NCBI RefSeq assembly: GCF_011297335.1
Contig: NZ_JAAOTJ010000007.1
Span: 186,001 to 250,000 of the forward strand
DNA: 64,000 nt
From: Catellatospora methionotrophica
GTDB lineage: Bacteria; Actinomycetota; Actinomycetes; Mycobacteriales; Micromonosporaceae
Direction: 5' to 3'
Shown in pieces: positions 37,753 through 63,307 of the stretch. Made by a program: the position numbers and the translations under genes. The notes under the pieces are model-generated. The model ran no database searches. It was given only the letters and a program-made list of their open reading frames with translations, and was not told the DNA's origin. The number at the start of each line of letters is the position of its first letter. Within the stretch, counting starts at the first letter, position 1.

Positions 37753-37781
37753 GTGTTCGACACGAACATCACGATCGTCGG
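37753..37781 (+). pseudogene. ssb: 5' fragment of ssb, cut by element insertion
   Basis: A GTG start with an upstream GGAG (37741-37744) opens a frame reading MFDTNITIVG, the canonical N-terminus of a single-stranded DNA-binding protein. After the 12-bp core at 37770-37781 the sequence departs into the mobile element and stops within 20 codons. The remaining 209 codons lie at 62,678-63,307 in the same frame. Joining the two gives a 215-residue SSB. Confidence 0.88.
37770..37781 (+). other. attL: left attachment core
   Basis: The 12-mer CACGATCGTCGG is identical to the copy at 62,677-62,688. It sits inside codons 6-9 of ssb. ACGATCGT is self-complementary, as often seen in serine-recombinase crossover sites. 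Confidence 0.85.
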
Positions 37782-37952
37782 TTGCTCCAAAGCGCACACC
37801 GGTGATTGCAGGTCAGGTGCTACGCCAGCGGCATGACCATGGTTCATCGACCGAGGCTGCCAGCCGAAGGCAGGAACGAGCCAACCGCAAACCGCCCATA
37901 CGGCCTGGCCCGCGAGACGTTGGCGCTAGCCGGGCCTCGCGGGCCAACCTCC

Positions 37953-37981
37953 CCTGCCTAGGTGCCACGTACCTAGGCAGG
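37953..37981. repeat. Perfect hairpin near left end of element
   Basis: 11-bp perfect arms (CCTGCCTAGGT and complement) around a 7-base loop, about 170 bp inside attL. Role unknown: terminator or protein-binding site. The surrounding 37,782-38,229 contains no convincing gene. Confidence 0.6.
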
Positions 37982-38229
37982 ACCACACTAAGCACTTCCA
38001 TGGAAGCTGCTGAACTTACCGCTTACGCATGCCTGTCAGAACAGATGCACCAATCCCAAGCGCTGAGGAAATGGCGCATCCGGGTTGACGCCTTCTCGGT
38101 AGCCACCTTAAGGCGCAGTAAATACTCGTCCGTGAACGCGACCGCCGGACGAGATAATGTTAGGCATTCGAATATAGATGATGGGAATGTCTACATGCGA
38201 CCAAGCACTCGAAAAGGCGATCTAATTGT

Positions 38230-38658
38230 CTACCAGGTTGCAGAAACACCCTGACACAACGAAAATGCGTTGACCCAAATGCCAGAGCTAGTACTGTACC
38301 TTTCAGTCGTGTGCCGCATGTAGTGCGCCTGGTTTGCATAGGGAGTTGTCGTGTCTATGTAATGCCAGGTATTGTCGACCGCCTTGCGAGGAGCTGTGTA
38401 GATGACGGATGCGCCACTTGTCCTCATCAGCGTCAGCTTGAATGCCGTTCCATCGGCACCCGTACAGGCTGTTCCGCCGATACGAACACTTGACCTCGTC
38501 GGTATGAAGTCGTAGCTTGCGCGGTAGGTAGCCTCCGAAGGCCAGTTTTGGGACCAAGCCTGGGCAGCGGGCGCGGCGGATGCCACTGACAGAGCTGCAA
38601 TTCCCCCGATGATGACGACGCGCCGCAAGGCACGCTGAAGCATGTGCTTGGCTTTCAT
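38230..38658 (-). CDS. Secreted protein of unknown function, paralogue of the gene at 39137
   Basis: A 142-residue protein with a signal peptide (ALRRVVIIGGIAALSVASAA, cleavage after AQA) and a mature part of about 105 residues. It shares with the divergent gene at 39137 the pattern W-x-ATYRAS-x-D-x-IP, then GTAC-TGAD, LMRTS, a tryptophan-histidine near WHYI, and a C-terminal CQGV. Two conserved cysteines could form a disulfide. ATG 38658 has GAGGA directly upstream. I do not recognise the family. It is element cargo with lower GC than the host. Confidence 0.75.
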   Translation of the reverse strand: MKAKHMLQRALRRVVIIGGIAALSVASAAPAAQAWSQNWPSEATYRASYDFIPTRSSVRIGGTACTGADGTAFKLTLMRTSGASVIYTAPRKAVDNTWHYIDTTTPYANQAHYMRHTTERYSTSSGIWVNAFSLCQGVSATW

Positions 38659-39136
38659 TCTTCCTCCCCGCGTTCGGGATGGCCGGCAAGCCATCCCTCC
38701 AAGTAGGCACTTGCTCAAAGCGTTCACACACTTACATATTTACTGATGTGAGTCAACGCACGCGGTGTTTCCCTGGCAGTACTGCCTGCCTGCCAGCCCG
38801 ACGTCGCCGTAAGCCGGGCGCGTTTGGGGCGGAAAGCAGCTGCGCGATCGGGTCCGCAGCTGCTCACGTGGCCACACTGCACATCGACGATCATCACATT
38901 CTTAGTAGAAGTGGGCACCGTTGCACAAGTTGCCCGACGCCCAATGCTTCGGCATCGGCCCGCTATCCAGCAGGAACGGCCAAGGCGCCATCTACGTATC
39001 TCAATTCATGAAAAAACACATTGACACCTCCCGCTTGCTCTGCAATTCTGGCCAAGCTTCGAAGCGATCAACTGCAATGCCAAACCTGCGGCTGCATCGA
39101 TCGCGATGCGTCGCACCTGTCAGAGGGGAGACAAGC
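38659..39136. other. Divergent promoter region between secreted paralogues
   Basis: These 478 bp separate two divergent genes and are AT-richer than the chromosome. No further gene is supported. Promoters for both presumably lie here. Confidence 0.4.
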
Positions 39137-39541
39137 GTGCTGCGAACATTGATTCGAGCGACACTAGTGGCTGGAATTCTGGCCGCTTCAGCAGTAACGG
39201 TCCAATCGCCAGCAGCGGCCTTCTACCAAACCTGGAGCACCAGTGCCAGCTATCGCGCGAGCGGCGATTGGCTACCAGCCAATCCAACAGTGACGCCTTA
39301 TGGAAAAGCCTGCTCCGGTGGAGATGCGTACCTTTTCAACATTTCGATCTTGAGGACGAGCAATAGCGGGATCATCTGGAATAGCAGCAATGCTTGGGCG
39401 GATGGACAGTGGTGGCACTGGAACCCAGTTGGAGTCCAGATCGGAACAAGTTACTACTTCCGCTGGCGCGGCCTGAACGCTTCGGGCAACACATACTACG
39501 GAGCCCCCTGCCAGGGCGTGCAGGCGTCGGTCACGGTGTAA
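39137..39541 (+). CDS. Secreted protein of unknown function, paralogue of the gene at 38230
   Basis: A 134-residue protein: signal peptide (LIRATLVAGILAASAVTVQS, cleavage after AAA) then a tryptophan- and serine-rich mature domain of about 105 residues. Shared with its divergent neighbour are W-x-ASYRAS-x-D-x-LP, GKACSGGDAYLF, ILRTS, WHW and a C-terminal PCQGVQASV. The start GTG 39137 has GGGGAG eight bases before it. The mature domain looks like a small beta-sandwich, but that is only impression. Function unknown. Confidence 0.75.
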   Translation: MLRTLIRATLVAGILAASAVTVQSPAAAFYQTWSTSASYRASGDWLPANPTVTPYGKACSGGDAYLFNISILRTSNSGIIWNSSNAWADGQWWHWNPVGVQIGTSYYFRWRGLNASGNTYYGAPCQGVQASVTV

Positions 39542-39650
39542 TCCGGCGGGCCACAGTTCCGCCCGGCAGCTACGGCGTCAGGCTGTCGAGGCACTCCATC
39601 CGCCAGTAGCCGAACCTTTTGATGCCGTCTAGTTAAACGGATTGGCGACA

Positions 39651-39681
39651 GGTGGCGGCCACCCTCCCGGGGGCCGCCACC
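39651..39681 (+). terminator. Hairpin after secreted paralogue gene
   Basis: 10-bp perfect arms (GGTGGCGGCC and complement) with an 11-base loop lie between the secreted-protein gene and the next gene. Confidence 0.6.
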
Positions 39682-39704
39682 CTATCATCTTGTGGGGGGA
39701 GCGT

Positions 39705-41432
39705 ATGGGCTTAAGTAGCACTAAGGCCAGCGTAGCTGCAGGCATTATCTGGGCCACAGCTATAGGCATTGTAACCGTCTATGCCTTCGCCGCGCTGCGT
39801 CGGCCACCATCAGATACGTTCGCCGACCTGGCGGTTTACTATGGTTCAGTCCGCACGCTAATCGATGATGGCTCCCTCTACATTTTCGCCGCGCAAAATG
39901 GCGATCCGTTCACCTACCCTCCATTCGCTGGCCTTGTGCTCTCGCCCCTAGGTTTGATCACTGAAAGTACGGCCGGATGGCTTTGGTTTATCGGTACAGT
40001 ATCGCTAATTGTCATACTTTCAGTAGCGATTGGGTCGAAAATAAGGGGCAGGAACTCTGAGGCCGCTCCGTGGTGGACGCCTGCTGTCGCAGTAGTTCTC
40101 TTCGTTTCGGCGCCGATGTCGAGCAACATCCGCTTTGGGCAAATCTCTTGGGTCCTTGTGGCTCTGGTCCTGATCGACGCACTAAAGATCGTTCCGGCGC
40201 GCCATAGAGGTATTGCTACAGGAGTAGCATCCGCCCTAAAGCTCACACCATTGATATTTATTCCCTATTATTGGCTATCGGGACAGCGACGCACGGCATT
40301 TATGAGTCTCGCTACTTTTGCGGGTTGCACCGGAGTTGCCTGGCTTTTGCTGCCGAGCGACTCGAGCTATTTTTGGTTCGAACTACTATCGGCAACGGAC
40401 CGGATCGGCGACCTTTCGAATGGTGGCAATCAGTCGATTAATGGTATGCTCTTGCGACTTGGGATAAATGGAGTCGAGAAGTTTGTGATCCTAATCCTAT
40501 TGTCTGCCGCCATACTCGCACTTGGTCTCTGGCGAGGAGTGCGAGCGTCGCGTAATGAGCATCTTGTCGTGGGAGCAAGCGTCATAGGAGCAACTGCAAT
40601 TGCCATTTCGCCTGTATCCTGGACTCATCACCAGGTCTGGCTCGTATTTGCCGCTGCCGCTTCGTTCGATCGGCGGTGGACGACCTATCTGTGGCGGACC
40701 ATCGCGCTAGTGATCATGATTGTGCCCCTAGGAACCATAACCGCGAAGGCGTTCCCTGCAGCGGCGCAGCTAGGCGGTAACGCACGTGGCCTGCTGGCAC
40801 TAGCCGTTGCCGGTCTTCTTCCGTTTACCGAAATCGCGAAGATCGGCACTACTCTTGTCCAGAGTCATTCAATTTTAAGGTTCAATATCCCATCTCAATC
40901 AACCGATAAGGGCGCGGGTTCTAAAATTATGAAAATGGCGATACCCTGTCTAGCGGCAACATTACTTCTCGGCGGGTGCGGCAACACAACACCGGAAGTG
41001 CTGCGCCCAAGTGGCCAACAGCTGGTTATGACGCTCTCATCGGGTGAAATTGATGGAGTTAAGTGGCAGGTTGAAGTCGTGAGGATAGGTGTTCAGAGCT
41101 GCACTCAGTCTGTTGTTCATTATCAAATAATGGGGAATGACTGCGAAGTTGGGCTGAAGATGGCGGAGGTGCCAGTTAATATTGCGGTCGAAGGAAACGC
41201 CAAGATCTTATTTGTCCGAGGCGTTGTCGGATCGCAGGTTGCCCGGATTATCTCTGTCACGCAGAGTCGACCCAGCGGAGAGCCGGTCAAGATTTCCACG
41301 GTGGACGGTGTTCGGTACTTTGGATACGCCGTCAAGCCAAGCGATGCTGTCGACCTGGTCGGTTACGATGCGACGGGTCAGATGGTCTATTCTGGAGCCT
41401 CGAAGATTCTGTCGACGCGGGATGATCGATAG
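39705..41432 (+). CDS. GT87-type membrane glycosyltransferase fused to a lipoprotein-like domain
   Basis: Residues 1-400 are a polytopic membrane protein with about ten hydrophobic helices. They resemble the DUF2029/GT87 polyprenol-phosphate mannosyltransferases: an early aspartate in TFADLAVYYGS, then DPFTYPPFAGLVLSP, FGQISWVLVALVL, GVASALKLTPLIFIPYYW and ISPVSWTHHQVWL. Near residue 410 a second export signal appears (MKMAIPCLAATLLLGGCGN) with a lipobox LLGGC, followed by a 150-residue soluble domain of unknown type. The two parts are in one frame without a stop, which is unusual. ATG 39705 has GGGGGGA upstream. It is cargo in the mobile element. Confidence 0.75.
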   Translation: MGLSSTKASVAAGIIWATAIGIVTVYAFAALRRPPSDTFADLAVYYGSVRTLIDDGSLYIFAAQNGDPFTYPPFAGLVLSPLGLITESTAGWLWFIGTVSLIVILSVAIGSKIRGRNSEAAPWWTPAVAVVLFVSAPMSSNIRFGQISWVLVALVLIDALKIVPARHRGIATGVASALKLTPLIFIPYYWLSGQRRTAFMSLATFAGCTGVAWLLLPSDSSYFWFELLSATDRIGDLSNGGNQSINGMLLRLGINGVEKFVILILLSAAILALGLWRGVRASRNEHLVVGASVIGATAIAISPVSWTHHQVWLVFAAAASFDRRWTTYLWRTIALVIMIVPLGTITAKAFPAAAQLGGNARGLLALAVAGLLPFTEIAKIGTTLVQSHSILRFNIPSQSTDKGAGSKIMKMAIPCLAATLLLGGCGNTTPEVLRPSGQQLVMTLSSGEIDGVKWQVEVVRIGVQSCTQSVVHYQIMGNDCEVGLKMAEVPVNIAVEGNAKILFVRGVVGSQVARIISVTQSRPSGEPVKISTVDGVRYFGYAVKPSDAVDLVGYDATGQMVYSGASKILSTRDDR

Positions 41433-41518
41433 TAGTCGAGAACGAAGTAACTACTTCTTAGGTCAATCGTCCTGCTCATTCACAGTGTTGCCGGGCTTGT
41501 TTTGTGCGGGCGTCGGGC

Positions 41519-41817
41519 CTATTCGATGACGACCAGGCCGGAGGTTCGCCGGCGCGGATGGCAAGCAGGCGTGCGGCACCGGTCGTCATCGCCCGGGTGC
41601 GGTGCGGTACGGGTCGGTGGGGCCGCATCAACCCACTGACAGGTAAAGCACCGGCACGCCTGCCGGTCATGCAGGATACCGTCGACCTTGGCTTTCTGGC
41701 AGGCGGCGCAGTCCGCGACGGGCCGTTGGATCGGCGGTAGCAGGAACACTGGCCAGCCGTTGGGGGCTGGCGTAGCAGTTGCCGACGGGTGAGCCGCCGG
41801 GGGCGGACCTTCAGGGT
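41519..41817 (-). pseudogene. Decayed N-terminal fragment of bifunctional DNA primase/polymerase gene
   Basis: On the minus strand the DNA lines up with the start of the intact prim-pol gene at 58593. It contains NGWPVFLL and KRP-like QRPVA, a CAACQKAK zinc-finger half, HDRQACRCFTCQ, and LLAIRAGEP and SGLVVIE. The last two lie in different frames, so at least one frameshift has occurred, and a stop follows directly after VVIE. Only about 100 codons remain. This shows that a second replication module once lay here in opposite orientation. Confidence 0.8.
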
Positions 41818-41888
41818 TTTGGCCATCGGCCAGTTACTCACCCTGCACAGGACAGCGGTAATGGCGCTCGCCCCGTATCCTGCGAATC

Positions 41889-42071
41889 GTGAAGGTTGAC
41901 TGGAGCGGAGCGGTAGGCCTCAGTGGCATCGTCGGAGGTTTGATACTGTTCGCAATCACCAACGACGGCAGTCAGGTTCCGGACGATGCATCGGCGGTAG
42001 CAGCGTTCCTGGTAATTGGCGGCGCGCTGCTCCTGATTGAGGCTGCAATCAGGCACAAGAAGTCCGACTGA
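41889..42071 (+). CDS. Small membrane protein, homologue of the one beside the intact prim-pol gene
   Basis: A 60-residue protein with two hydrophobic stretches (LSGIVGGLILFAI and VAAFLVIGGALLLIE) and a basic tail AAIRHKKSD. The tail and second helix match the 62-residue protein at 58339 (GYLMRIEDAIRQNKAQ). In both places the gene is divergent from a prim-pol gene, here a decayed one. It might still be functional. Function unknown. Confidence 0.55.
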   Translation: MKVDWSGAVGLSGIVGGLILFAITNDGSQVPDDASAVAAFLVIGGALLLIEAAIRHKKSD

Positions 42072-42334
42072 TACTGGCACCTGCGTAGATCGTGCGAGGG
42101 TCCGTCATGTTCGGTGAGCGCGTGGGTCACGTGGTCCGGACGATGCCCGCCGGTTGGCACCCTTGCCGGTCGTGGGGTCGGGTGCCGACCCTTGGACAGT
42201 GCCGACGCCGTGGGGCTTGAGCGCCGCAGCGACCTGCTCGGCACCCCCATCCGCTGTACTCGTCCGGGCGCAGGTGGGCGAGCCGGTCGGCCTGACCTCC
42301 GACCACGCCTTCGGCTCGGTCGCCGGGGGTACGG

Positions 42335-42484
42335 TCAGATGCCTTCGAGCAAGGTGTCTTTGGGCTTGGCGGCCGTGTGCTGGCCGACCGCTTTGCCGGT
42401 CAGGATGCCCGCGGCCACGCGCAGCGCATGTGCCCGGTCGGTGATGGGCTCCGCGGTCGGGCCGTCGATGTAGTACGTGCGCAC
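42335..42484 (-). CDS. Possible small protein or 3' gene remnant (49 aa)
   Basis: From a GTG at 42484 this reads RTYYIDGPTAEPITDRAHAL, then a helical segment and a stop, with host-like high third-position GC. No ribosome-binding site precedes it and an in-frame stop lies seven codons upstream, so it may be a broken remnant. Family not recognised. Confidence 0.3.
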   Translation of the reverse strand: MRTYYIDGPTAEPITDRAHALRVAAGILTGKAVGQHTAAKPKDTLLEGI

Positions 42485-42493
42485 GATCGTCGG
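42482..42493 (+). other. Internal exact copy of the attachment core
   Basis: CACGATCGTCGG is present here exactly as at both element ends. It lies at the right edge of the decayed stretch. It could be a relic att site of an earlier, abutting element or a chance match. Confidence 0.4.
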
Positions 42494-42926: not shown

Positions 42927-44228
42927 ATGACCACCTTTAGCGATGGCTTCGCCCACTTCCTCCCACCGTCGAGGTCGCGCCAAACCACGGCCATGTCCGA
43001 GGGTCTTGTCGTAGTGGACGCGAACGTTCTTCTTGATGCCTATAGGTACACGAGTAATGCTCGAAATGAGCTGTTCGCCGCACTGAGGAGCCTTGGCGAT
43101 CGGTTATGGGTGCCACATCAGGTGGCCCTAGAGTTCCATCGCAACCGATCGAAGGTAATGGTCGGTTACGACGACTCATACAATGATCTACTAAAAGCAT
43201 TGGCAGATTTTCGTAAGAAGCACGACGACGAGTTCGTCAAGCACGTTCGCGAATTCGCCAATCGTGTTGCACTTACCGGTGACCATCAACGTTCGCTGCT
43301 TGGCGAGTTCGCCAAAGCCTTCGATGTCCTACATGAGAAGATAAATGACTTAAGGGCACAGCACGGCATTTCCGACCGTTTTATCACCGACGACCCCGTA
43401 TTGCGAGAGCTTCAGGCGCTTCTGGACGGGAAGACAGGCGGACCGCTTTCAGCCGAGGAGGAGCAGGCGGCGCGCGAAGAAGCGACCCAGCGAATAGAGT
43501 CAGAAAAGCCCCCTGGCTTCAAAGACGCAGGTAAGGACGATCCGTGTGGCGACTACTTGCTCTGGCATCAGAGCCTCAAAGAGGCGAAGCTACGCCAGAA
43601 GCCTCTCCTGTTCGTCACCCGTGATAGCAAAAGCGACTGGTTCTTGACGTTGAAAGGTCGCACGATATCCGCCTTACCGGATCTGGTTAAAGAGGCCTAC
43701 GACATCGCAGGCGTGGATTTCGTGGCAATGGCGACGCGCTCATTCCTCATTTATGCGCAATCGATCCTTAAAACACAAGTCAGTGAATCGACGCTAAAGC
43801 AATCGGACGCCATTAGGCAATCGTTGTCACATAGCAAAAAGAAGCATTTCTTCATCAGCGAAGAACTTGGCGATCAACTATTGGCGCAAGCGCTACAAGA
43901 TCGCGCGCTCTCGAGCGAGCGTCTAGACCGCATTAACCGTGCGATCCAGTTAAATTCTGGTAACCCGAAGATGGAGGCGGAGCTCAAGACTGCCTCGCGT
44001 GTTGCTGGGCGAGTACAGGTGCAGCTCGATCTCAATGATCTATTTATTTCGACATTGCGCGGTGCGAGTAAGATGCGCGGCACCCTCAGGCTGGAGATGT
44101 CAGACTGGCTGCCTGACGAGATTGCGCGTCGGCAAGCGCGCATAGTGCAACAAGAGGATGATCCGTCTTCGGAGCCCAAATCATCAATTAATGGCGTAGT
44201 CGACCAGGAGCCCCCTCTCGTCGACTAA
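42927..44228 (+). CDS. PIN-like nuclease domain protein
   Basis: The N-terminal half resembles the PIN_8-type nuclease domain: first acidic site in VVVDANVLLDAYRY, a glutamate in WVPHQVALEFHRNRS, and later DPCGDYLLWHQSLKEA and LFVTRDSKSDWF, which supply the remaining metal-binding aspartates. The middle has a charged helical insertion. The C-terminal 150 residues are helical and unassigned. PIN_8 proteins are often found among phage-defence genes. The gene has lower GC than its surroundings, fitting cargo. Next on the same strand is an OLD-type ATPase, 675 bp away. Confidence 0.75.
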   Translation: MTTFSDGFAHFLPPSRSRQTTAMSEGLVVVDANVLLDAYRYTSNARNELFAALRSLGDRLWVPHQVALEFHRNRSKVMVGYDDSYNDLLKALADFRKKHDDEFVKHVREFANRVALTGDHQRSLLGEFAKAFDVLHEKINDLRAQHGISDRFITDDPVLRELQALLDGKTGGPLSAEEEQAAREEATQRIESEKPPGFKDAGKDDPCGDYLLWHQSLKEAKLRQKPLLFVTRDSKSDWFLTLKGRTISALPDLVKEAYDIAGVDFVAMATRSFLIYAQSILKTQVSESTLKQSDAIRQSLSHSKKKHFFISEELGDQLLAQALQDRALSSERLDRINRAIQLNSGNPKMEAELKTASRVAGRVQVQLDLNDLFISTLRGASKMRGTLRLEMSDWLPDEIARRQARIVQQEDDPSSEPKSSINGVVDQEPPLVD

Positions 44229-44289
44229 GCGGCTTGCCGCCCGGAGCAACATCCCTAGCCTCGTCTGCCGTCGGCCCGCACTCCGTGGT

Positions 44290-44360
44290 CATGATTCCCC
44301 GACCTGGTCAAGGTGGAGCACTCCCCGACTGAACGACCTTGACCAAGTCGGGGAATCATG
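44290..44360. repeat. Long inverted repeat downstream of PIN-like gene
   Basis: 24-base arms (44290-44313 with 44337-44360) match at all but one position, with a 23-base loop. It probably ends transcription of the PIN-like gene, though it is longer than most terminators. Confidence 0.7.
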
Positions 44361-44395
44361 AAGGCTTTGCCCGGGTCGATGGTGGGCGGGGTGCG

Positions 44396-44645
44396 ACTCC
44401 CCGGAGCCCGAAGTTGGGGGTTTGACCTTGACCTTGAAGACATCAGGTGGCACGGATGCGACGGCGGCGGGAGCTGCGGTCAGATGATCCGTCTGATGTG
44501 CGAAACGGATCATAAACTAAATAAATGATCTTCGTCTGGCTGATCACCCTGTCGACAAAAATCATTTTCATTGGCTGAGCGGCCGCGTCTTTATCACCGG
44601 CGTTCCTGGTGCTCATCGCCGTCGGCCAGGTCGTCAACGTTGACC
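44396..44645 (+). repeat. Direct repeat A flanking OLD-type gene
   Basis: About 250 bp imperfectly repeated at 46,846-47,098 in the same orientation. Shared blocks include CTCCCCGGAGCC, CCTTGAAGACATCA, GTGGCACGGAT, GCTGCGGTCAG, GCTGAGCGG and GTCAACGT. By eye roughly three quarters of positions agree. It contains a 9-bp inverted repeat (ATGATCCGT and complement). Confidence 0.75.
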
Positions 44646-44682
44646 CCCCTGCAAGGCCAGGTCGACCCCCCTGCAAGGCCAG
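44642..44682 (+). repeat. Short tandem repeat
   Basis: The 19-mer GACCCCCCTGCAAGGCCAG is found twice with a 22-bp period, right at the end of direct repeat A. Confidence 0.8.
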
Positions 44683-44903
44683 TACGTAGCAATCTGCTTA
44701 ATGAACGTGCCGCCTACTTGAACAAGTGATCATCAACGATCGCCGTTCGGGTTCGACCGTTCGGCTAACTAAAATCGCCTAAGGTGCATTAATTTAATGA
44801 TCATGTGAGGTAAAGATCGTTTGCTCGCCTCGCTGGTCACTGATCGACTAAAGTGCTGTCTTCGTCGGTGCACATCAAAGCTACGGTGACAGGACCCAGA
44901 AGT

Positions 44904-46814
44904 ATGCGCCTAACTAAGGTTCACGTACATGGCTTTCGTCGTCTCGTAGACACCTCGGTAAATGTCGACGCAAAGCTCATAGCTTTCTTGGGTCCCAATG
45001 AAGCAGGCAAGACGTCATTTCTTGAAGCTCTTACGACCATTGCCGACCCCTCTGAAATAGCGGACTCTGACCTACCTCGCCAATTGGCGGGACGTCCGCG
45101 ATCTCCGAAAGTTCTTACAGTCACTTTCATTTTGGACTCAAAAGATCGCGAACTGCTCAGACAAGCATTCCTCGCACCGGAACCCGGCACGCGAATCAGT
45201 TACACGAAGATTGTCTCGGGCAAGAGAACTTTAAGTTCGGTGCCAACAATTCAGCGCGATTTCGCTGCTTTGGCCGAGATGTTTGAACTAATCATGATTG
45301 AAGTGCGCTCATGGGAACGAGACCGACCGGAGCAGGTTGCCCACCTGCATGACGTGCTTCGCCGTCTAAACAGCGTATTGGCTCCACTTCGCCACGGCGC
45401 TGAGCCTGAGCGCGCTAGGCTAGGCGAGCTGAGTCTAGATGACTTGATTCAGCGCGAAAATAAGATTGCGGAGCAGCTTAAGTCCTTGGCTGCTTATCGT
45501 CGGTTGCGGTCCGTCTTGGGCAAGTCGGTCTTCGATACATACCGTGACATCCTGTCCCAACGGGAACCCAGCTTCGAACTACTCAATTCCAGCACAAGCG
45601 TACTTAAGACAGAATACAACCTCGATAAGTATAGTGATGCAGATCTGCCCGTTGCCCTAGCAAATGTGCTCTCCATCGGCGGGCTGTCAGTCACCAGACT
45701 GAGGCGAACTGCTAAAGCCGGCGACATTACCACGATGCACACGATGCTCAAGAACGCCAATAAGAAGCTTCGTGAAGTTTTTGAGCCTACGTGGAGGCAG
45801 TCGAACCTAACGCTTCGCCTTGAGGTAAGCGGGAGTAGAGTTCTTGTTCTAGTTGATGAGCTTCATGAAGATGGTAGCCGGACTGCTATCGAGGAACGTA
45901 GCGCTGGACTTAGAACGTATTTTTCAATGGCTACGCAACTGTTGGCAAAGCGCGCAAAGGAAGATTCCAGTGACTCTCCTCAAACTATCCTTCTGATAGA
46001 CGAGGCCGAAAGCCATCTCCATTACGATGCTCAGGCCGACCTTGTGAGTATCTTGGCAAAGCAACAATTTGCGCAGCAGGTACTTTACACAACTCATTCA
46101 CCTGGCTGCTTGCCCTCAGATCTCGGTACCGGAGTGCGGTTCGTCATTCCTTCCGCAGACGACCCGCGGTCAAGTGAGCTTCGTAACCACTTTTGGGGAT
46201 CCACATCTGTCGGTTTTTCTCCGTTGTTAGTGGCTATGGGGGCCGGTGCTGCTGCGTTCTCCTCATGCAGACGCGCGGTTCTTGCCGAAGGGGCGACCGA
46301 CATGCTTTTACTACCCACATTGATTCGACGTGCACTTGACGCTGATAGTTTGCCATACCAGGTTGCTCCCGGACTTTCCAGCCTCGGAAGAAGTGGTCTC
46401 GGCTTGAAGGAGTTGGCCGCCCAAGTCGCATATCTAGTGGATGGGGACCAGGGCGGTGAAGCATTGCAAAAGCTTCTCATCGAGCGAAGCGTAGACCCTG
46501 CATCCATTGTGGCGCTCCCCAAGGGTAGCGCCGTAGAGGACCTCATAGACCCACGTTTTTACGTTTCGGCAGCCGAGACTGTCATTCGAGAAACCGTTGG
46601 CAGTGAAGTCAAATTGGAAGTCAATTTCGACGATGACGGGATGATCGTCGACAAGGTCAAGCTAGCCTGTGAGCGTCTTGGCTTGCCGATACCAGGCAAA
46701 GTCGCTGTGGCCTGCTCGATACTCAACAGTAGTAATCGAGTGGAGCTTGCAACTGAAGCGAAGGCCGTCCTTGCCGACATTCATAAGAAGTTTTGCGTCG
46801 TTCTTGATTGTTAA
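44904..46814 (+). CDS. OLD-family ATPase with TOPRIM nuclease domain
   Basis: An SMC-like ABC ATPase is joined to a TOPRIM domain. Walker A is LGPNEAGKTSFLEAL at about residue 25 and the D-loop/Walker B region is TILLIDEAESHLHYDAQ, followed by YTTHSPGCLP. The TOPRIM domain begins AVLAEGATDMLLLPTL (catalytic glutamate) and contains YLVDGDQGGEAL (acidic pair). OLD proteins act as nucleases, and class 2 members pair with a helicase in Gabija defence; no UvrD-like helicase is present here. ATG 44904 has AGGAC upstream; a GTG at 44853 is possible. The gene is flanked by long direct repeats. Confidence 0.88.
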   Translation: MRLTKVHVHGFRRLVDTSVNVDAKLIAFLGPNEAGKTSFLEALTTIADPSEIADSDLPRQLAGRPRSPKVLTVTFILDSKDRELLRQAFLAPEPGTRISYTKIVSGKRTLSSVPTIQRDFAALAEMFELIMIEVRSWERDRPEQVAHLHDVLRRLNSVLAPLRHGAEPERARLGELSLDDLIQRENKIAEQLKSLAAYRRLRSVLGKSVFDTYRDILSQREPSFELLNSSTSVLKTEYNLDKYSDADLPVALANVLSIGGLSVTRLRRTAKAGDITTMHTMLKNANKKLREVFEPTWRQSNLTLRLEVSGSRVLVLVDELHEDGSRTAIEERSAGLRTYFSMATQLLAKRAKEDSSDSPQTILLIDEAESHLHYDAQADLVSILAKQQFAQQVLYTTHSPGCLPSDLGTGVRFVIPSADDPRSSELRNHFWGSTSVGFSPLLVAMGAGAAAFSSCRRAVLAEGATDMLLLPTLIRRALDADSLPYQVAPGLSSLGRSGLGLKELAAQVAYLVDGDQGGEALQKLLIERSVDPASIVALPKGSAVEDLIDPRFYVSAAETVIRETVGSEVKLEVNFDDDGMIVDKVKLACERLGLPIPGKVAVACSILNSSNRVELATEAKAVLADIHKKFCVVLDC

Positions 46815-47326: not shown

Positions 47327-47442
47327 TCGTCGTGATCGCGGGCATAATCACAGTTTGGTGAGTAAGGCGCTTGGTGCTGAGCCGAACAGCGATCGTGGTC
47401 AACCTTAGACATCCCCTCTAGCCTTCGGGTGTCCCGGCCGGA

Positions 47443-47537: not shown

Positions 47538-47597
47538 GTACGTGGTACGGCCTGACGATCTGTCGCGAGGCCGCAGTGCCTAGGGCAGAATGGCCCC

Positions 47598-55150: not shown

Positions 55151-55395
55151 GCCGCTTCTGTGACGACTGCTCGGCGCTGCGCGCCGAGCTCACCCGCATG
55201 GAACGCGAATTGCGCCGCCTTCAGCAGGCAGAGGCGTGGCTGCGGGAGCGGTTCACCGGCCTGATCACGGCCGTGGTCGCCATCCACGAACTCATCCGGT
55301 CCGAGGTCGAACGGCCCACGATGGGCCGGGCCGTCCTGTTCCAGCAGGTCACACAGCGCATCGAAACCGCGATCCTCGACGCTGAACGGAGATAG
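55147..55395 (+). CDS. Small coiled-coil protein with CxxC (82 aa)
   Basis: It starts SRFCDDCSALRAELTRMERE: a CxxC pair followed by a coiled coil to about residue 60. The ATG lies in an ATGA overlap with the preceding gene and its stop is two bases before traB. No family recognised; could be a TraB accessory. Confidence 0.65.
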   Translation: MSRFCDDCSALRAELTRMERELRRLQQAEAWLRERFTGLITAVVAIHELIRSEVERPTMGRAVLFQQVTQRIETAILDAERR

Positions 55396-55397
55396 CC

Positions 55398-57473
55398 ATG
55401 GCCATCACCCCGATCATCTTCAACAGCAACGAAGACGACCCGACCCGCCCGGCCGCGCCCGACCAGCACGGCCCGGCCGATGCCGAGTCCTACACCGTGT
55501 ACCGGCCCGACCAGGGCGCGCCCGTCGACGCCCCGGAAGAGGCCGAGCTGACGCTGACGTGGGCGGACGCGACCAGCGGTGACGCCCGGCGCCGCGTGCC
55601 ACTGGTGCCCACGTGGATGCTGTCGGCTCACACCCGGCGCGCCACGGTTCGCGCCCTGGTCGACGACGCGGGCTACTACGCCGCGTTCCACGCCCTGCGC
55701 GCCCCCAAATACGGCGGGCGGGTCCTGCTCTACGCCCCGCGCGGGGCGTTCCGGCTGGCGCGGCGCGTGCTGCGCTGGGCCAGCGCCGAGGAGGGCAACT
55801 GGGGCTTGCGCCAGCACGCGGCCAGCAAGGCCGACGCCTACACCTGGCAGGCCCTCAACCGGACCAGGTCCAAGGAGTCCAAGCCCCGCTGGATGCTGCT
55901 GGGTGCTGCCAGCCTCGCCATGGGCGTGGGTGCGAAGGTGCTGGAGGTGTCCGGCGTCGTCCCGCCGATCGGCTGGTACGCCGCCGCTGTCGGCGCGGTC
56001 GCCGTCGCTGCCCAGGCGGGCAAGCCCGCCGACGCGCCGATCACCGACCGCGTGTCCGACGCCCCGAAGTTCGTCCGGCTCACCGCCGAGCAGGTCCGGG
56101 CAGCCCTCGTATCGCTGCGGCTGGCCGGGCTGACCGACGGCGGCCAGGTCGAGTTCCCCTCGCCGATCCACCGTGACGGCCCTGGCTGGCTGGCCAGGGT
56201 GAACCTGCCGCTGGGCATCGAGGCGGTCAAGGCCATCGAAAAGCGCGCCGCGCTGTCGTCGGCGCTGCGCCTGCCGGTCGACCAGGTCTGGCCGACCGCA
56301 GGCCCCGAGCACGCCGGACAGCTCGACCTGTGGGTCGGCTACCAGCCCGCCTCCAAGATGGGCACCCCCCGCTGGTCGCTGCTGGCCGACAACGCCGTCA
56401 CCAGCGTGTTCACCGAAGAGGAGTTCGGGTCGGACGAGCGTCAGCGGCCGGTCAAGACCAGCGGGTTCGCGCGCTCGTTCCTGCTCGGCGGGCAGCCCGG
56501 ATCGGGCAAGAGCTACGCCGCCCGCGCCCTGGGCTTGGTCTTCGCCCTCGATCCGACGGTGGAGTTCAAGATTGCCGAGTTCAAGGGCACCGGCGACTTC
56601 ATCGACTTCGAGCCGCTGTGCTCGACCTACGTCGTCGGTGTCGACGACGAGGCGATCCGCCAGGGCGCGGCGATCCTGACGTGGGCGCTGGGCGAGGCCG
56701 AGCGGCGCGGCAAGCGCATCCTTGCCGCCAAGCAGGCCGGACACGCCCCGGAGGGCAAGGTCACGCCCGAGCTGGCCCGTAAGAAGGGCAGCGGCCTGCA
56801 CCCGATCGTGATCCTCATCGACGAGGCGCACGAGCTGTTCGCCGCCGACAAGGACGCCGCCGACGCGGCAGAACGGCTGATCAAGCGGGCGAGGGCGCTG
56901 AACATCATCGTCATCCTGGCGACCCAGATACCGGACAAGAACAGCCTTCCGCCGAACATCACCCGGTGCGTGACCAACCGGTGGTGCCTGTCGGTGGCTG
57001 GCCAGGTCGAAAACGACATGATCCTGGGCACCGGCGCGTACAAGCGCGGGATCACCGGAACCGTGTACCGGCCCGTGGTCGACGCCGGATGGGGAGTCAT
57101 GACCGGAGGACCGGCCCCGACGTCGGTCCGGTCCCAGTACCCCACCCCCGACCAGGCCGCAGCGATCCTCGCCCGCGCCGTCGCGCTGCGCGGCGGACGA
57201 CGTCCGATCGGCACCGACCTGCCCGCCGCGCGGGACCTGGTCGCCGACCTGCACGACGTGTCGGCCGACAACGGCCAGCACTGGTCGGTCGCCGCCCCGG
57301 CGCTGACCGAGCGGTGGCCCAACGCCTACCCGACGCTGACCGCTGAGGCGCTGTCGGACATGGCGCGCGGACTCGGCGTGACGTCACAGGGAGTGAAGGT
57401 CGCCGGACGGGTCCTCAAGGGCTACCGGCGCGACGAACTGACCGCGATCCTCGCCCAGCGCGGGCAGAGCTAG
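55398..57473 (+). CDS. TraB/FtsK-like DNA translocase for conjugal transfer
   Basis: In actinomycete elements one FtsK/SpoIIIE-type ATPase moves double-stranded DNA to the recipient. Here a 150-residue N-terminal part leads to a membrane segment pair (WMLLGAASLAMGVGAKVLEV and WYAAAVGAVAVAAQ). The motor domain then has Walker A LLGGQPGSGKSYAARAL and Walker B VILIDEAHELF, with LATQIPDKNSLP as a downstream motif. The C-terminus carries a winged-helix-like end (SDMARGLGVTSQGVKVAGRV) for recognising repeats on the DNA. Length of 691 residues is normal. Candidate recognition repeats lie right after the gene. Confidence 0.9.
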   Translation: MAITPIIFNSNEDDPTRPAAPDQHGPADAESYTVYRPDQGAPVDAPEEAELTLTWADATSGDARRRVPLVPTWMLSAHTRRATVRALVDDAGYYAAFHALRAPKYGGRVLLYAPRGAFRLARRVLRWASAEEGNWGLRQHAASKADAYTWQALNRTRSKESKPRWMLLGAASLAMGVGAKVLEVSGVVPPIGWYAAAVGAVAVAAQAGKPADAPITDRVSDAPKFVRLTAEQVRAALVSLRLAGLTDGGQVEFPSPIHRDGPGWLARVNLPLGIEAVKAIEKRAALSSALRLPVDQVWPTAGPEHAGQLDLWVGYQPASKMGTPRWSLLADNAVTSVFTEEEFGSDERQRPVKTSGFARSFLLGGQPGSGKSYAARALGLVFALDPTVEFKIAEFKGTGDFIDFEPLCSTYVVGVDDEAIRQGAAILTWALGEAERRGKRILAAKQAGHAPEGKVTPELARKKGSGLHPIVILIDEAHELFAADKDAADAAERLIKRARALNIIVILATQIPDKNSLPPNITRCVTNRWCLSVAGQVENDMILGTGAYKRGITGTVYRPVVDAGWGVMTGGPAPTSVRSQYPTPDQAAAILARAVALRGGRRPIGTDLPAARDLVADLHDVSADNGQHWSVAAPALTERWPNAYPTLTAEALSDMARGLGVTSQGVKVAGRVLKGYRRDELTAILAQRGQS

Positions 57474-58592: not shown

Positions 58593-59519
58593 ATGACCGT
58601 GGACCCTGAAAGGCCGCCTACGGCGGCTCACCCCTGGTTGGCGGCTGCGCTGCGCTACGCCACCAACGGCTGGCCAGTGTTCCTGCTCAGCCGGTCCAAA
58701 CGGCCCGTAGCTCTCTGCCGAACCTGTCACGCCGCCCGGCGCGACAAGACGCCGCACGACCCGCAGACGTGCGGCTGCCTGACCTGCCACGGGTTCTACG
58801 CGGCCAGCACCGACCCCGACCGCATCACGGCCATGTTCGCCGCCGTGCCGCGCGGGCTGCTGGCCATCCGGACCGGCGCGCCATCCGGCCTGGTCGTCAT
58901 CGACGTCGACCCCCGCCATGACGGACACATCACCCTGCGCGCCCTCATCAACCGCGGACTGACCCCACCCACCCGCTACGTACACACCGGGTCAGGCGGC
59001 CTGCACCTGTACTACGCCCACCCCGGCCGCCCGGTGCCGTGCGACCAGGCGCGGCGGCTCGGACCGGGCATCGACGTCAAAGCCGACGGCGGGTACGTGC
59101 TCGCCCCGCCCTCGCTCCACCCGGCCACCGGTCGCCCGTACCGCTGGGCCGACCAGGACGCGGCCGTGATGGATATGGCCCCCGCGCTAGTTGCGGCGTG
59201 CGTCGCCGAGCTGCGGCCCGCACCGGCCCGCCGCCCGGTCCCCGCGCTGCCCGCGCGCAGCGCGGGAGCCATATCCCACCCCGACCGGCTCATGGCCACG
59301 CTGGTCGACCGCATCCACCAGGCCCCCGACGGCCGCCGCCGCGTAACTCTCTACGGCTGCGCACGCGGCGCAGCGCTCATCGTCGCCACAGGCCACATGA
59401 CCAAAACCGACGCCTACGACCAGCTCGTGGCCGCGTGCGACGCCGCACGCTGGCCCTGGGCCAAGTCCACCCCCAACGCCATCCGAGACGGATTCGCCGC
59501 AGAAGGAGTGACACTATGA
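58593..59519 (+). CDS. Bifunctional DNA primase/polymerase (prim-pol) replication protein
   Basis: This 308-residue protein has the archaeo-eukaryotic prim-pol fold. A zinc-finger insertion is seen at residues 40-65 (CRTCHAARRDKTPHDPQTCG), the catalytic acidic pair is in LVVIDVDPRHDGH, and a later active-site segment is GIDVKADGGYVLAPPSLHP. Prim-pol proteins are one of the known AICE replicase types. It overlaps the next gene, a DUF3631 protein, by four bases, so both act together. A short copy of its start sequence occurs upstream at 58246-58271. Confidence 0.9.
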   Translation: MTVDPERPPTAAHPWLAAALRYATNGWPVFLLSRSKRPVALCRTCHAARRDKTPHDPQTCGCLTCHGFYAASTDPDRITAMFAAVPRGLLAIRTGAPSGLVVIDVDPRHDGHITLRALINRGLTPPTRYVHTGSGGLHLYYAHPGRPVPCDQARRLGPGIDVKADGGYVLAPPSLHPATGRPYRWADQDAAVMDMAPALVAACVAELRPAPARRPVPALPARSAGAISHPDRLMATLVDRIHQAPDGRRRVTLYGCARGAALIVATGHMTKTDAYDQLVAACDAARWPWAKSTPNAIRDGFAAEGVTL

Positions 59520-60769
59520 CCCGACCAGCCAAGCCACGCCCCACCATCGACGGTGCGGAATTGCTCGACCGGGTTCACGCGATGATCGTGCGCTACGTGA
59601 TCCTGCCCTGCCCGGAAGCCGCAGACGCGGTCACACTCTGGATCGCGGCGACGCACGCGCAGGATGCCTGGGCGTACGCGCCCCGGCTGGTCATTCGTGC
59701 CCCGGAGAAGCGCTGCGGAAAGTCTCGACTGCTAGACGTGGTCGAGGGCGCGAGCCACAACCCGCTCATGACCGTCAACGCAAGCCCTGCCGCCGTCTAC
59801 CGCTCCATTGGCGCAGGCAACGCGCTCACGCTGCTGGTAGACGAGGCAGACACCATTTTCGGTCCCAAGGCGGGCGAGAACGAAGACCTTCGCGGCCTGC
59901 TCAACGCAGGCCACCAGCGCGGACGCCCCGCCATCCGATACGACGCCAACACCCAGCGAGTGGAGACCATCGAGACATTCTGCATGGCAGCCCTCGCAGG
60001 CATCGGCCAGATGCCCGACACGATCGAAGACAGGGCCGTAGTCGTCAAGATGCGCCGCCGCGCTCCCGGCGAGACTGTTAAGCCCTGGCGGATCAAGCGC
60101 GACCGGCCCCAGATGCTTAAGCTGTCAGCCGAGCTATCGGCCTGGCTCACCCCACTCCTGCCCGAGCTGGAGAGCGCCGAGCCGGTCATGCCCCTGGAAG
60201 ACCGCGCCGCCGACACCTGGGAACCGCTGATCGTCATCGCAGACGCGGCCGGTGGAACCTGGCGCGAGCGCGCTCGCGCCGCCTCGCTGGTCCTCACGGG
60301 CGAGGCCGAGAAGAACGCCATCGCCTCAGACCGCGTGCGGCTGCTTACCGACTGCCGGACCGCGTTCGGCACCGATGAGGCACTGCCGACCGGGATGCTG
60401 ATCGACCGGCTCAAGGCCGACCAGGAGGCACCCTGGGCGCGCCACGACGGAACCGGTCTCACCCCGATCAAGCTCGCCGGACTGCTGCGGGAGTACGACA
60501 TCCGCTCCGACACGATCCGGTTCGAGCAACCGATCGGACAGGCCAAGGGCTACCGCGCGGGCGACTTCTGGGACTCCTGGAACCGCTACTGCCCGCCAAC
60601 CAGCGCGAACACTGCCGCCGCCGCGATTGGCGATGTCCCGACCGATGTCCCGTGGTACGGCTCAAGCCGTACCACTCAAGATCCCGTACCGCCCCTGACC
60701 GGCGATGGTACGGCTGGTACGGCTGGTACGGGTACCCCCCGCCACCTACGTCTCGCCAACCCCAGCTGA
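59516..60769 (+). CDS. DUF3631 ATPase-like replication partner
   Basis: A 417-residue protein. A P-loop is visible in APEKRCGKSRLLDVVEG and an acidic Walker B in LTLLVDEADTIFG, then arginine-finger-like EDRAVVVKMRRR. The DUF3631 domain spans about residues 200-380. Proteins like this pair with prim-pol as a helicase or loader. The last 45 residues are encoded by the 95-bp iteron repeat (GDGTAGTAGTGTP), so the C-terminus is low-complexity and may be dispensable. Confidence 0.85.
   Translation: MTRPAKPRPTIDGAELLDRVHAMIVRYVILPCPEAADAVTLWIAATHAQDAWAYAPRLVIRAPEKRCGKSRLLDVVEGASHNPLMTVNASPAAVYRSIGAGNALTLLVDEADTIFGPKAGENEDLRGLLNAGHQRGRPAIRYDANTQRVETIETFCMAALAGIGQMPDTIEDRAVVVKMRRRAPGETVKPWRIKRDRPQMLKLSAELSAWLTPLLPELESAEPVMPLEDRAADTWEPLIVIADAAGGTWRERARAASLVLTGEAEKNAIASDRVRLLTDCRTAFGTDEALPTGMLIDRLKADQEAPWARHDGTGLTPIKLAGLLREYDIRSDTIRFEQPIGQAKGYRAGDFWDSWNRYCPPTSANTAAAAIGDVPTDVPWYGSSRTTQDPVPPLTGDGTAGTAGTGTPRHLRLANPS
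60645..60740 (+). repeat. Right copy of 95-bp inverted repeat with GGTACGGCT iterons
   Basis: It holds three 9-base units beginning at 60707, 60716 and 60725, and the palindrome GGTACGGCTCAAGCCGTACC at 60654. It matches the left copy at 47,443 in opposite orientation. Here it is part of the DUF3631 coding region. Confidence 0.85.
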
Positions 60770-60882: not shown

Positions 60883-61122
60883 ATGGCTCAGGTTCGCTCT
60901 CAGACGGCTAACTGCAAGCCGTCGATACGCCCGACCCCCCACAGTGCGATGCATTGCGCGGGCAGCCATGGTGGCGGCCCAATGGATCCCACTCGGCGAG
61001 ACGCTTTCCCTCTTCCGGCCAAGGCCGAGTGCTGGGCTGAGTTCTGGATTGTCGTAGCTAAGGCACACGCGGCGGCTCACCGGCGCGAACGTCTAGCGCG
61101 GGCAGCGGGGCGCACGGCATGA
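60883..61122 (+). CDS. Small element protein preceding integrase (79 aa)
   Basis: A mostly helical C-terminus (AECWAEFWIVVAKAHAAAHR) and an N-terminus with scattered cysteines and histidines. GGAGG precedes the ATG, and the stop overlaps the integrase start by four bases, so it is coupled to the integrase. It may be a recombination directionality factor by position only. Not recognised. Confidence 0.6.
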   Translation: MAQVRSQTANCKPSIRPTPHSAMHCAGSHGGGPMDPTRRDAFPLPAKAECWAEFWIVVAKAHAAAHRRERLARAAGRTA

Positions 61123-62573
61123 GTGTCAACAAGAAGGCAGTTGCCTACATCCGCGTTTCGGCCGTGATGGGCAGGGAGGAGCTGATCTCTCCAGAGCTGC
61201 AAATGTTTGAGATCGAAACATTCGCCAAGCGCCACGGCCTGGACATCGTGCGCCGCATTGAGGACATCGACCGATCCGGCCGCAGTTTCACCAAGCGGCG
61301 TATTGACGAAGTAATCGCAGGGATTGAAGCTTCTCAATGGAAGCATGTGATCCTTTGGAAATGGTCACGATGGGGGCGGAATCTCCAGCAATCGCTCCTA
61401 TACCTTGCAATCACCGAGCAGGCAGGAGGCGTGGTCCGAGCGGCGACAGAGGACTTTGACCCGACGACGAGCGTTGGCCGGTTCACGCGTGATCAGATGT
61501 TGCTCATCGCTGAGCTACAGAGCAACCAAATCGGTGATAGCTGGAAAGAGACACATGGCAAGCGCCGTCGCAACGGATTGCCGCACACCACACAGAAGAG
61601 GCTGGGCTATACATACAGCCGTGAGACTGGGTACAGAGTTCAAGAAAACGAAGCAGAGCTAGTGCGTGAGGCGTATAACCGGTACGTCTCCGGTAAGTCG
61701 CTAGCCTCACTGGCAGGCGAATGGAACGCCAGTGGGCTGCGGACGACGCAAGACAAACTATGGACCGACACCTCAATTCGGCTCATGCTTGACAATGGCT
61801 TCGCCGCTGGACTAATACGCGAACGGAGCGATACGCAATCCGGACGACGACCGGAACATTTCGACAAGTGGCGCAGGGGTGCTCATCAGCCCGTAATTTC
61901 CGAATATGTGTGGAAGGCATATCAGCGAAGGCGCGCCGAAATGGCGCGCCTACCCGTGCGACATCGACGAGCAACGCACGCATTTAGCGCCCTCCTCGTC
62001 TGCGGCTACGACGCGTGCGGCAGACCGATGATTGCCGTTAGATCGGGCCGCAAGAATTATCTCAACTGGAGTTGCAAGTACGCGCAAGATACCAAGGTTC
62101 ATCCGTCCAACCGAATCTCCAACGTTCGCCTTGAGTTGGTGGTCATGGAATGGATCGAGCGGGAATCTGTAGGCGGTGTAGATATTGACGAGGAGGCTGA
62201 GCGATTCGAGCGGGCCGAAGCATCGGTAATAGAGGTGAGCCGCCTCCGAGGAGAGCTATCTCGGCTAGCCGCGAAGCGCAAACGGCTGCTCGCGGCGTAC
62301 ACCGATGGGGTGGTAGATGAAGAGGACTACAAAGAGCAGCGAGAAGAGATCAAGCTTGCGATCGCTGCGACTTCGACTGAACTTGAGGCCGAGGAGGAGC
62401 GACTCGCCACGGAGGGGGCAGACCCCCTGCCTGCCTTCCGAACCATCCGCGACGAGTGGAAACGGTTCACCACCGAGGAACGGAACCACGCGCTCAGGGC
62501 CGTCCTGGCGCGCATCGTGATCCACCCCGGACCTTATGGCTCCGGAAAGGTTCAGCCGGTTTCTCGGTGGTGA
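61119..62573 (+). CDS. Large serine recombinase (element integrase)
   Basis: The N-terminal resolvase domain has the catalytic serine in AYIRVSAV, the arginine region RIEDIDRSGRSF and VILWKWSRWGRN. A recombinase domain follows (about 155-260, RRRNGLPHTTQKRLGYTYSR), then a zinc-ribbon-like segment (LVCGYDACGRP and NWSCKYAQD) with an embedded coiled coil (about 360-430, RGELSRLAAKRKRLLAAY). At 484 residues it is of phage-integrase type. It is the last gene before attR. Lower GC than the backbone. Confidence 0.93.
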   Translation: MSVNKKAVAYIRVSAVMGREELISPELQMFEIETFAKRHGLDIVRRIEDIDRSGRSFTKRRIDEVIAGIEASQWKHVILWKWSRWGRNLQQSLLYLAITEQAGGVVRAATEDFDPTTSVGRFTRDQMLLIAELQSNQIGDSWKETHGKRRRNGLPHTTQKRLGYTYSRETGYRVQENEAELVREAYNRYVSGKSLASLAGEWNASGLRTTQDKLWTDTSIRLMLDNGFAAGLIRERSDTQSGRRPEHFDKWRRGAHQPVISEYVWKAYQRRRAEMARLPVRHRRATHAFSALLVCGYDACGRPMIAVRSGRKNYLNWSCKYAQDTKVHPSNRISNVRLELVVMEWIERESVGGVDIDEEAERFERAEASVIEVSRLRGELSRLAAKRKRLLAAYTDGVVDEEDYKEQREEIKLAIAATSTELEAEEERLATEGADPLPAFRTIRDEWKRFTTEERNHALRAVLARIVIHPGPYGSGKVQPVSRW

Positions 62574-62578
62574 GTCGT

Positions 62579-62624
62579 CTTCGCCATGGGCGGGCATGTG
62601 CAACCATGCTCGCCCATGGCGAAG
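62579..62624 (+). terminator. Terminator after integrase gene
   Basis: 14-bp perfect arms (CTTCGCCATGGGCG and complement) with a further inner stem GCATG/CATGC. It lies 50 bp from attR and would shield ssb from integrase transcripts. Confidence 0.85.
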
Positions 62625-62656
62625 CCCCCCGATCATGCGTTGACCTGCGATTATGG

Positions 62657-63307
62657 GTGGGTATTTTAGGCCGTCCCACGATCGTCGGGAACGTGCTCAC
62701 CGCGCCGGAGTGGCGGCGCACCAGCCAGTCCGGGCAGCTCGTGGCCAACTTCAAGGTGGCCTCCACGGCCCGCCGGCTGGACCGGGCCAACAACCGCTGG
62801 GTCGACGGGAACAGCCTGCGCGTGCGCGTCAACTGCTGGCGGCGGCTCGCCGAGGGCGTGGCCAGTTCGGTGATGGTGGGCGATCCCGTGGTGGTCGTCG
62901 GCCGCCTCTACACCCGGGACTGGATCGACGAGGACGGCCAGCGCCGCGTGATGTACGAGCTGGAGGCGGCGGCGGTCGGCCACGACCTGTCCCGGGGCCG
63001 GGGCCGGTTCGCCCGGACCAAGCCGGGGACCTCGACCAGCGCGATCGAGGACGGCACCGGCGAGAGCCGGGTGGGCGACGAGCAGACCGAGCCCGCGCCC
63101 GACATGCGGATCGGCCCGGACCCGAACGACCCGCTGTTCGCCGACGACGACCCGGCCTTCGGCGGGGCGTTCGACCTCGACGCGATCGCGTCGCTGCGCG
63201 GCGGCGGCATGGGGGCCGAACTGGTCGCTGGTGAGCAGGACGCCGACGACGAGGAGGACGACGAGGACGAGGCGGCGGCACGCTCGCGCGTGCCGGTCGC
63301 GGCGTAG
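62657..63307 (+). pseudogene. ssb: 3' portion of split chromosomal ssb gene with possible element-supplied start
   Basis: From the core onwards this encodes all of an SSB except its first six residues: TIVGNVLTAPEWRRTSQSGQ, then the OB-fold strands, MVGDPVVVVGRLYTRDW and a long acidic tail that ends RSRVPVAA, without the DxxPF tip. An in-frame GTG at 62657 lies inside the element and would give MGILGRP ahead of TIVG, so a slightly altered protein could still be made. No clear ribosome site precedes it. In the uninserted state the start would be 37,753. Confidence 0.8.
62677..62688 (+). other. attR: right attachment core
   Basis: Identical 12-mer CACGATCGTCGG to attL at 37,770. The ssb reading frame resumes at ACG (62,678) and goes on with GTC GGG AAC, continuing the SSB sequence VGN. 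Confidence 0.85.

Follow-up and report, generated by a model that had tools for sequence, protein, structure and literature searches.

Actinomycete integrative and conjugative elements (AICEs) are not known to carry relaxase or type IV secretion genes. According to the main-text passages of Ghinet et al. (2011; PMC3218068), 19 of 144 AICEs use serine recombinases and some of these elements reside in protein genes; serine-integrase AICEs in such genes are known. The same passages define Prim-Pol and RepAM-type replication genes, Tra, and serine recombinases as AICE modules and describe Nudix genes as frequent AICE cargo. With regard to the target gene, the nearest case in the literature is the pneumococcal prophage group PPH085, which, in the part of PMC8637289 devoted to it, encodes a serine integrase and is located next to the pneumococcal ssb. 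The element analysed here is contained in a 64,000-nucleotide stretch of the Catellatospora methionotrophica genome (G000:C54:186001-250000; hereafter, the window) and interrupts the beginning of a gene for a single-stranded DNA-binding protein (ssb). The insertion site and the integrase comprise the following features:

37753-37781, plus strand: 5' end of ssb with a GTG start, 9 codons, left core included; attL consists of this ssb half and an attP-type arm
37770-37781, plus strand: left core CACGATCGTCGG, within GTG TTC GAC ACG AAC ATC ACG ATC GTC GG
61119-62573, plus strand: large serine integrase of 484 amino acids with Resolvase, Recombinase, and weak zinc ribbon domains
62677-62688, plus strand: right core CACGATCGTCGG; attR consists of an attP-type arm and the other ssb half
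62678-63307, plus strand: 3' part of ssb (Pfam SSB), with an open frame

The two 12-bp cores are spaced by 24,907 bp. Joining the flanks at the core gives the nucleotide sequence VFDTNITIVGNVLTAPEW... and the protein VFDTNITIVGNVLTAPEWRRT..., which is in frame, comprises 215 residues and ends with the stop at 63307. The joined 824 nucleotides displayed 78-90% identity to ssb of nine intact relatives from the same genus (over 820-824 nucleotides in seven and 781 nucleotides in two of them). These alignments contained 3-11 gap openings, all of them elsewhere and none at the junction. Since 20 exact copies of CACGATCGTCGG occur in the genome of 8,391,523 bases, three of them in the window, the core by itself proves little; the ends of the element are established by the core at both ends taken together with the restored ssb and the att arms.

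A contiguous ssb starting with VFDT was present in nine of the ten other genomes of the genus (L005-L013). In the tenth, Catellatospora paridis NEAU-CL2 (Micromonosporaceae; G010), ssb is broken at the same codon (L004), which gives two occupied genes in 11 genomes. The original prediction had described an ssb split by an element with a shared 12-bp core and rejoining in frame, a serine recombinase ahead of the right core, use of the ssb 5' end as attB, and an uninterrupted gene in relatives lacking the element. All of this was supported.

The split gene codes for a protein with the C-terminus VPVAA, while a second SSB of the same genome (G000:C34) has a DDEPPF tail; the former is a non-canonical paralogue. 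A clear SsbB orthology was not evident, with chain 4dam placed below seven others in the structure matches. Homologs of ssb were found in 262 of 300 genomes of the family (threshold 1e-35), listed in part.

The integrase matched the Pfam domains PF00239 (67.4 bits), PF07508 (57.5 bits; cut-off 21.1), and, just under the cut-off of 25.3, the zinc ribbon PF13408 (24.9 bits), so that the domain set of large serine integrases, Resolvase plus Recombinase plus zinc ribbon, was counted as present. Among solved structures, chains of the A118 integrase were the best matches. The outward arms of the att sites have the motif CGTsGG...CTAAA...CCACCC...TCGCAGG in common. In a leave-one-out scan, attL and attR of the window and two C. 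paridis arms each ranked second of 127,926 or 143,926 positions, with a model that still contained the other arm of the same sequence. The inverted repeat around the shared dinucleotide, typical of attP, was likewise counted as present, with 15 of 25 symmetric positions in the joined attP of the window and 14-20 of 25 in five other attP sites, as raw counts without a shuffled control. A wider spread of this integrase was considered and rejected: only its own genome was recovered among 394 genomes of the class at 1e-120, and eight of 300 family genomes, its own included, at 1e-100. The same applies to a recent phage origin, as 273 phage records all fell below 60% identity, the 15 listed being 27.2-34.5% identical.

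The same codons are occupied in a second genus, that of G314. Here, 160 genomes were searched for ssb and 149 were listed; the ssb row started at residue 5-7 in six of the latter (G314, G322, G330, G339, G354, and G360) and at residue 1 in the other rows. When these 160 genomes were searched for the integrase, eight had a match at 1e-100. The six found at ssb are 68-100% identical and adjoin the ssb break in every case. The integrases of G288 and G310 are 52-55% identical, and ssb in these genomes starts at residue 1. Among the viral loci, four of seven had 65-74% identity, and L093 and L094 contained unbroken attP sites with ACGATCGT. In a tree of 18 integrases, from which L041 (G231) was left out as no integrase frame was obtained for it, the six ssb-associated proteins grouped in a single clade (99/99), within which G330 and G360 were sisters (100/99). 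The integrase of the window belonged to a separate clade and showed about 25% identity to the second one. Each clade has relatives for which ssb was not found near the integrase gene, and ssb targeting, therefore, most simply arose twice. As far as these genomes indicate, the start of ssb is a recurrent hotspot reused by a second, unrelated integrase clade. Thus, the unusual target named by the original prediction is retained, but as a shared site, not a singleton. The genome of the window also encodes another large serine integrase (G000:C1:1613258-1614679; L075), which is 47% identical to the ssb integrase of G314 and is located at a different site.

The integrase genes of the second clade lie at either half of ssb:

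Integrase at the ssb 5' half: G314, G322, G339 (591-46265), G354 (77501-129040), and the IMG/VR provirus L095
Integrase at the ssb 3' half: G360 (83446-124966) and G330 (other end off the contig)

Large serine integrases usually have an asymmetric central dinucleotide, which fixes orientation. The orientation of Bxb1 integration reportedly depends on this dinucleotide, to judge from the title of the 2003 work of Ghosh et al. The dependence of orientation on the central dinucleotide is also described for serine integration in PMC3783163. In G354, CT, the dinucleotide that opens ssb codon 8, is flanked on either side by differences between attL and attR. These two positions also fall within the tracts shared by both sites in G322 (GTGGT), G339 (ACGATC), and G010 (CACGAT), where they are occupied by GT, AT, and AT, respectively. 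The window, G314, and G360 have attL and attR with the entire core in common, and AT was assigned to them by register. The dinucleotide in register is AT in the window, G010, G314, G339, G330, G360, L093, L094, and L095, GT in G322, and CT in G354. By register with G354, we infer that the crossover in the window took place at AT, positions 37774-37775. The usual asymmetry is lacking here, since the dinucleotide is mostly AT, its own complement. Because AT is palindromic and orientation is set by the central dinucleotide, AT sites should allow insertion in both directions. The two elements with the integrase at the ssb 3' half, G330 and G360, both have AT; GT and CT occur in elements of the commoner orientation. 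Judged by the placement of the integrase genes, both orientations are present in the second clade. An attempt to derive orientation from the attP arms of the outer insert in C. paridis gave no usable difference; these arms are near-symmetric, and we make no claim regarding the orientation of this insert.

Evidence of excision was obtained from the assembly of G314, which contained attL on C1, attR on C3, attP formed by the joined element ends on C2, and an intact ssb on the 10.9-kb C4. The shared stretches were 100% identical over 2,329-10,528 bases. Most simply, the sequenced culture contained the element in both its integrated and its excised form. A second copy of the right part of the element, joined to the left part and lacking 2.3 kb with the integrase gene and attP, was detected in G314:C3:1-10131 (L054, L049); this may be a tandem copy, a deletion circle, or an assembly error. 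In G322, attL, attP, and attR were distributed over two contigs, which may correspond to a tandem or a collapsed free form.

This coexistence of empty and occupied forms, together with the conservation of ssb in the family, would fit a growth-phase or stress switch, in which regulated excision toggles the ssb paralogue as adaptive 'active lysogeny'. For mutL, such behaviour is reported of a Streptococcus pyogenes element. Yet, the occupied state is limited to the six genomes listed in the second genus and the two in the genus of the window, no sign of regulated excision or benefit was seen, and the conserved codon block is sufficient as a target, which makes such a switch highly improbable.

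The 3' frame of ssb is open in all eight occupied alleles, and this could also mean that attR supplies ssb with a new start and promoter, resulting in an SSB with a replaced N-terminus under control of the element. In-frame starts upstream of the ssb remainder occur in G000, G010, G314, G322, and G339. In the window, the nearest one is GTG at 62657, which would give MGILGRPTIVGN...; G314 and G322 have TTG 3-4 codons upstream, and G339 has GTG 13 codons upstream. However, the nearest start in G010 is 22 codons away, and in G330, G354, and G360 the frame is closed by a stop 1-3 codons upstream, without any start. No clear ribosome-binding site was recognised by eye at the start in the window, and a 20-bp hairpin behind the integrase gene would hinder read-through. 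We consider such a takeover improbable, and it was rejected as a general outcome, with three of eight alleles devoid of a start. Since the element does not consistently supply a start, a knock-out is likelier, and insertion probably silences the ssb paralogue as a rule. Of the two possibilities offered by the original prediction, control or knock-down of a host SSB, the latter is thus favoured and the former is weakened.

The ends of the 24.9-kb insert stand as predicted; its description as a single unit probably does not. A third att half-site would divide it into two parts, the first of which carries the following features:

37782-42481, no strand assigned: 4.7-kb passenger segment with short open reading frames (ORFs) and without a recognised integrase
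39642-41432: GT87 glycosyltransferase in the passenger
41510-41812, inverted: Prim-Pol remnant in the passenger, 79% identical to the start of the C. paridis Prim-Pol gene
42482-42493, plus strand: third copy of the core, flanked on the right by an attP-like arm

The arm to the right of 42482 has GTCGGACGCTGTA and 23 of 42 positions in common with the attL arm of C. paridis and 20 with the arm at 158404 in the same organism; random pairs shared 11.9 positions on average (sd 3.1), with at least 22 in 0.16% of them. In the position weight matrix scan, this arm ranked fourth of 127,926. A comparable array of multiple att sites is present in C. paridis, where the ssb insert (G010:C16 125718-162778) contains att-like sites at 130839, 155584, and 158404, and the integrase unit is inverted and nested within the insert. 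The alternative is a single uniform element of 24.9 kb, with the core at 42482 as a chance match. Counted in its favour are the 20 exact cores of the genome, equivalent to about 0.06 expected in 25 kb, and the arm itself, in which the outer TCGCAGG block is missing and which agrees with the two arms of the window in just 16 and 17 of 42 positions; against the resemblance to the C. paridis arm, the rank in the scan, and the C. paridis array, we regard this alternative as rather unlikely. Thus, the insert is probably a composite of a 4.7-kb passenger and a 20.2-kb AICE, the former presumably having been accreted beside the latter. The C. paridis array also includes a gene for an NB-ARC/TPR STAND-type protein (L036:6705-9350; G010:C16), located between the att-like sites at 155584 and 158404.

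The 20.2-kb part contains, in addition to the integrase gene, the following features:

42927-44228, plus strand: PIN_8-domain protein, cargo
44853-46814, plus strand: AAA ATPase protein with weak AriA/OLD/GajA-type matches, candidate defence cargo
47837-48433, plus strand: Nudix hydrolase
48426-49685, minus strand: NsdA-family TPR-like regulatory protein
54108-54548, plus strand: element-borne SSB with a GTG start and a tail ending in DEPPF
55398-57473, plus strand: TraB/FtsK-like translocase, 34% identical to the translocase of the G314 element
58593-59519, plus strand: Prim-Pol primase/polymerase (137.9 bits)
59516-60769, plus strand: DUF3631 (RepAM-type) replication protein (202.1 bits), adjoining Prim-Pol
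62579-62624, plus strand: hairpin with a 20-bp stem directly after the integrase gene, terminator or insulator candidate

AICEs were recognised by a tyrosine or serine integrase (PF07508 for the latter), a RepSA, RepAM (PF12307), or Prim-Pol (PF09250) replication module, and an FtsK/SpoIIIE-type Tra protein (PF01580). The integrase domain PF07508 and the replication module, represented by DUF3631 and Prim-Pol in adjacent genes, were both found. The TraB-like protein displayed an AAA match of 25.2 bits, over the cut-off of 21.2. No relaxase or type IV secretion genes were detected among the 19 element ORFs scanned with Pfam. The gene content suggests an AICE-like element, which would presumably transfer by conjugation and, as is typical of AICEs, in the form of double-stranded DNA.

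An SSB of the element does not regularly accompany ssb targeting: the searched stretches of the G314 element contained none, and one was present in G322. G330 (partial sequence), G339, G354, and G360, searched with the SSB of the window only, contained none besides the split ssb. The folding energy of the hairpin was -41.5 kcal/mol for 62574-62640 (z -6.6), and the integrase gene of C. paridis is also followed by a hairpin, at the same place and of different sequence. The PIN_8 and AAA ATPase pair (42927-46814) is low in GC and is a candidate for defence cargo. A structured repeat of ~95 bp, composed of a hairpin TGGTACGGC..GCCGTACCA and three TGGTACGGC-like units, occurs at 47426-47540 (minus strand) and 60646-60755 (plus strand). 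Three copies were identified in C. paridis (G010:C16, about 132760, 146690, and 152990), in one of which GGGACGG replaces the unit at every occurrence, as would fit a protein-binding iteron or an origin of transfer or replication. ARAGORN predicted a tRNA-Ser(GCT) at 55367-55457 (minus strand), overlapping the start of the TraB-like gene; it is probably spurious or a remnant.

Taken together, codons 7-10 (Thr-Ile-Val-Gly) of the non-canonical ssb paralogue would have served as the attB with which a large serine integrase recombined attP, and strands would have been exchanged at the palindromic AT that begins codon 8. Such a dinucleotide would leave orientation free, which fits both directions in the second clade. 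A second att-flanked passenger segment has probably been accreted beside the AICE. Integration would part the promoter, start, and first codons of ssb from the rest of the gene, and because of this separation the paralogue is most likely not produced in the integrated state; excision would restore it. We hold this explanation as a whole, that is, an AICE-like element in an ssb attB, an accreted passenger, loss of the SSB, and a recurrent hotspot, to be probable.

Several observations weigh against it. The only close relative of the window integrase found, that of C. paridis (87% identity), is encoded by the nested unit and not at the ssb core, so that the ssb specificity of the window integrase rests on the window and the similar C. 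paridis arms. Six relatives with 40-49% identity have no ssb near the integrase gene; in G231, G080, and G128, ssb is far from it on the same contig. The exact history is weakened by the C. paridis arms, since the one at 130839 ranked only 2235 in the ungapped scan and the attR arm 11th. As attL and attR of the window share the entire 12-bp core, they do not by themselves place the exact crossover. The orientation switch may be a single event, given that it occupies one tree branch with G330 and G360 as sisters. The zinc ribbon of the integrase is atypical, with only three cysteines in the protein, and the FtsK_SpoIIIE match (PF01580) of the TraB-like protein, 21.7 bits, falls under the cut-off of 24.

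A broader reading would combine a convergent ssb landing pad, insertion either way via AT, a host-compatibility code, and an element SSB acting as directionality factor; jointly, these are a tentative and somewhat doubtful proposal. Two unrelated serine-integrase lineages may have evolved to cut the same Thr-Ile/Val-Val-Gly codons. The Ile/Val/Leu codon changes (AT, GT, CT) may represent a compatibility code of the host, which attP must match. Large serine integrases typically need no partner for integration but a directionality factor for excision. Finally, the element-borne SSB may serve as a directionality factor, which would tie excision to the very function removed by insertion. The integrase of phage TG1 uses SSB as an excision cofactor, according to a 2025 paper as cited in PMC12924846.

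At a single conserved codon block, the locus offers natural att sites matched for two unrelated clades of integrases, which are potential integration tools for Micromonosporaceae. It is also a natural setting in which to test whether a wild serine integrase can insert in either direction when its crossover dinucleotide is palindromic, and it represents a naturally occurring knock-out of an SSB paralogue, probably a reversible one.

In the open-access literature searched with regard to the ssb target, serine-integrase AICEs, palindromic crossovers and orientation, and SSB as directionality factor, no report was found of a serine integrase with ssb codons as its attB in actinobacteria, of the reuse of this target, or of the two orientations. 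The element resembles the AICEs of Ghinet et al. (PMC3218068) in its Tra, RepAM/Prim-Pol, and Recombinase modules and its Nudix gene. It differs in its target, the ssb 5' end, which the main-text passages of that paper do not name, and in being probably composite. The Resolvase and Recombinase domains, the imperfect inverted repeat of attP, and the short shared core are features in common with phiC31/Bxb1/A118-type integrases; in contrast to these, the AT inferred here is palindromic and would not fix orientation. Distant integrases sharing one conserved coding site, and targets enriched for DNA competence, are described in the main text of Durrant et al. (2022; PMC10083194). The target genes exemplified there, however, encode a magnesium chelatase/protease and a prolyl isomerase, and the terms 'ssb' and 'single-strand' are absent from that main text. 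The pneumococcal group PPH085, in turn, shares with our element the serine integrase and the proximity to ssb, but, as far as the relevant part of PMC8637289 describes it, is a Firmicutes phage situated at the boundary of ssb and its neighbour, with no statement regarding the start codons, whereas the element described here lies within the first codons of the gene.

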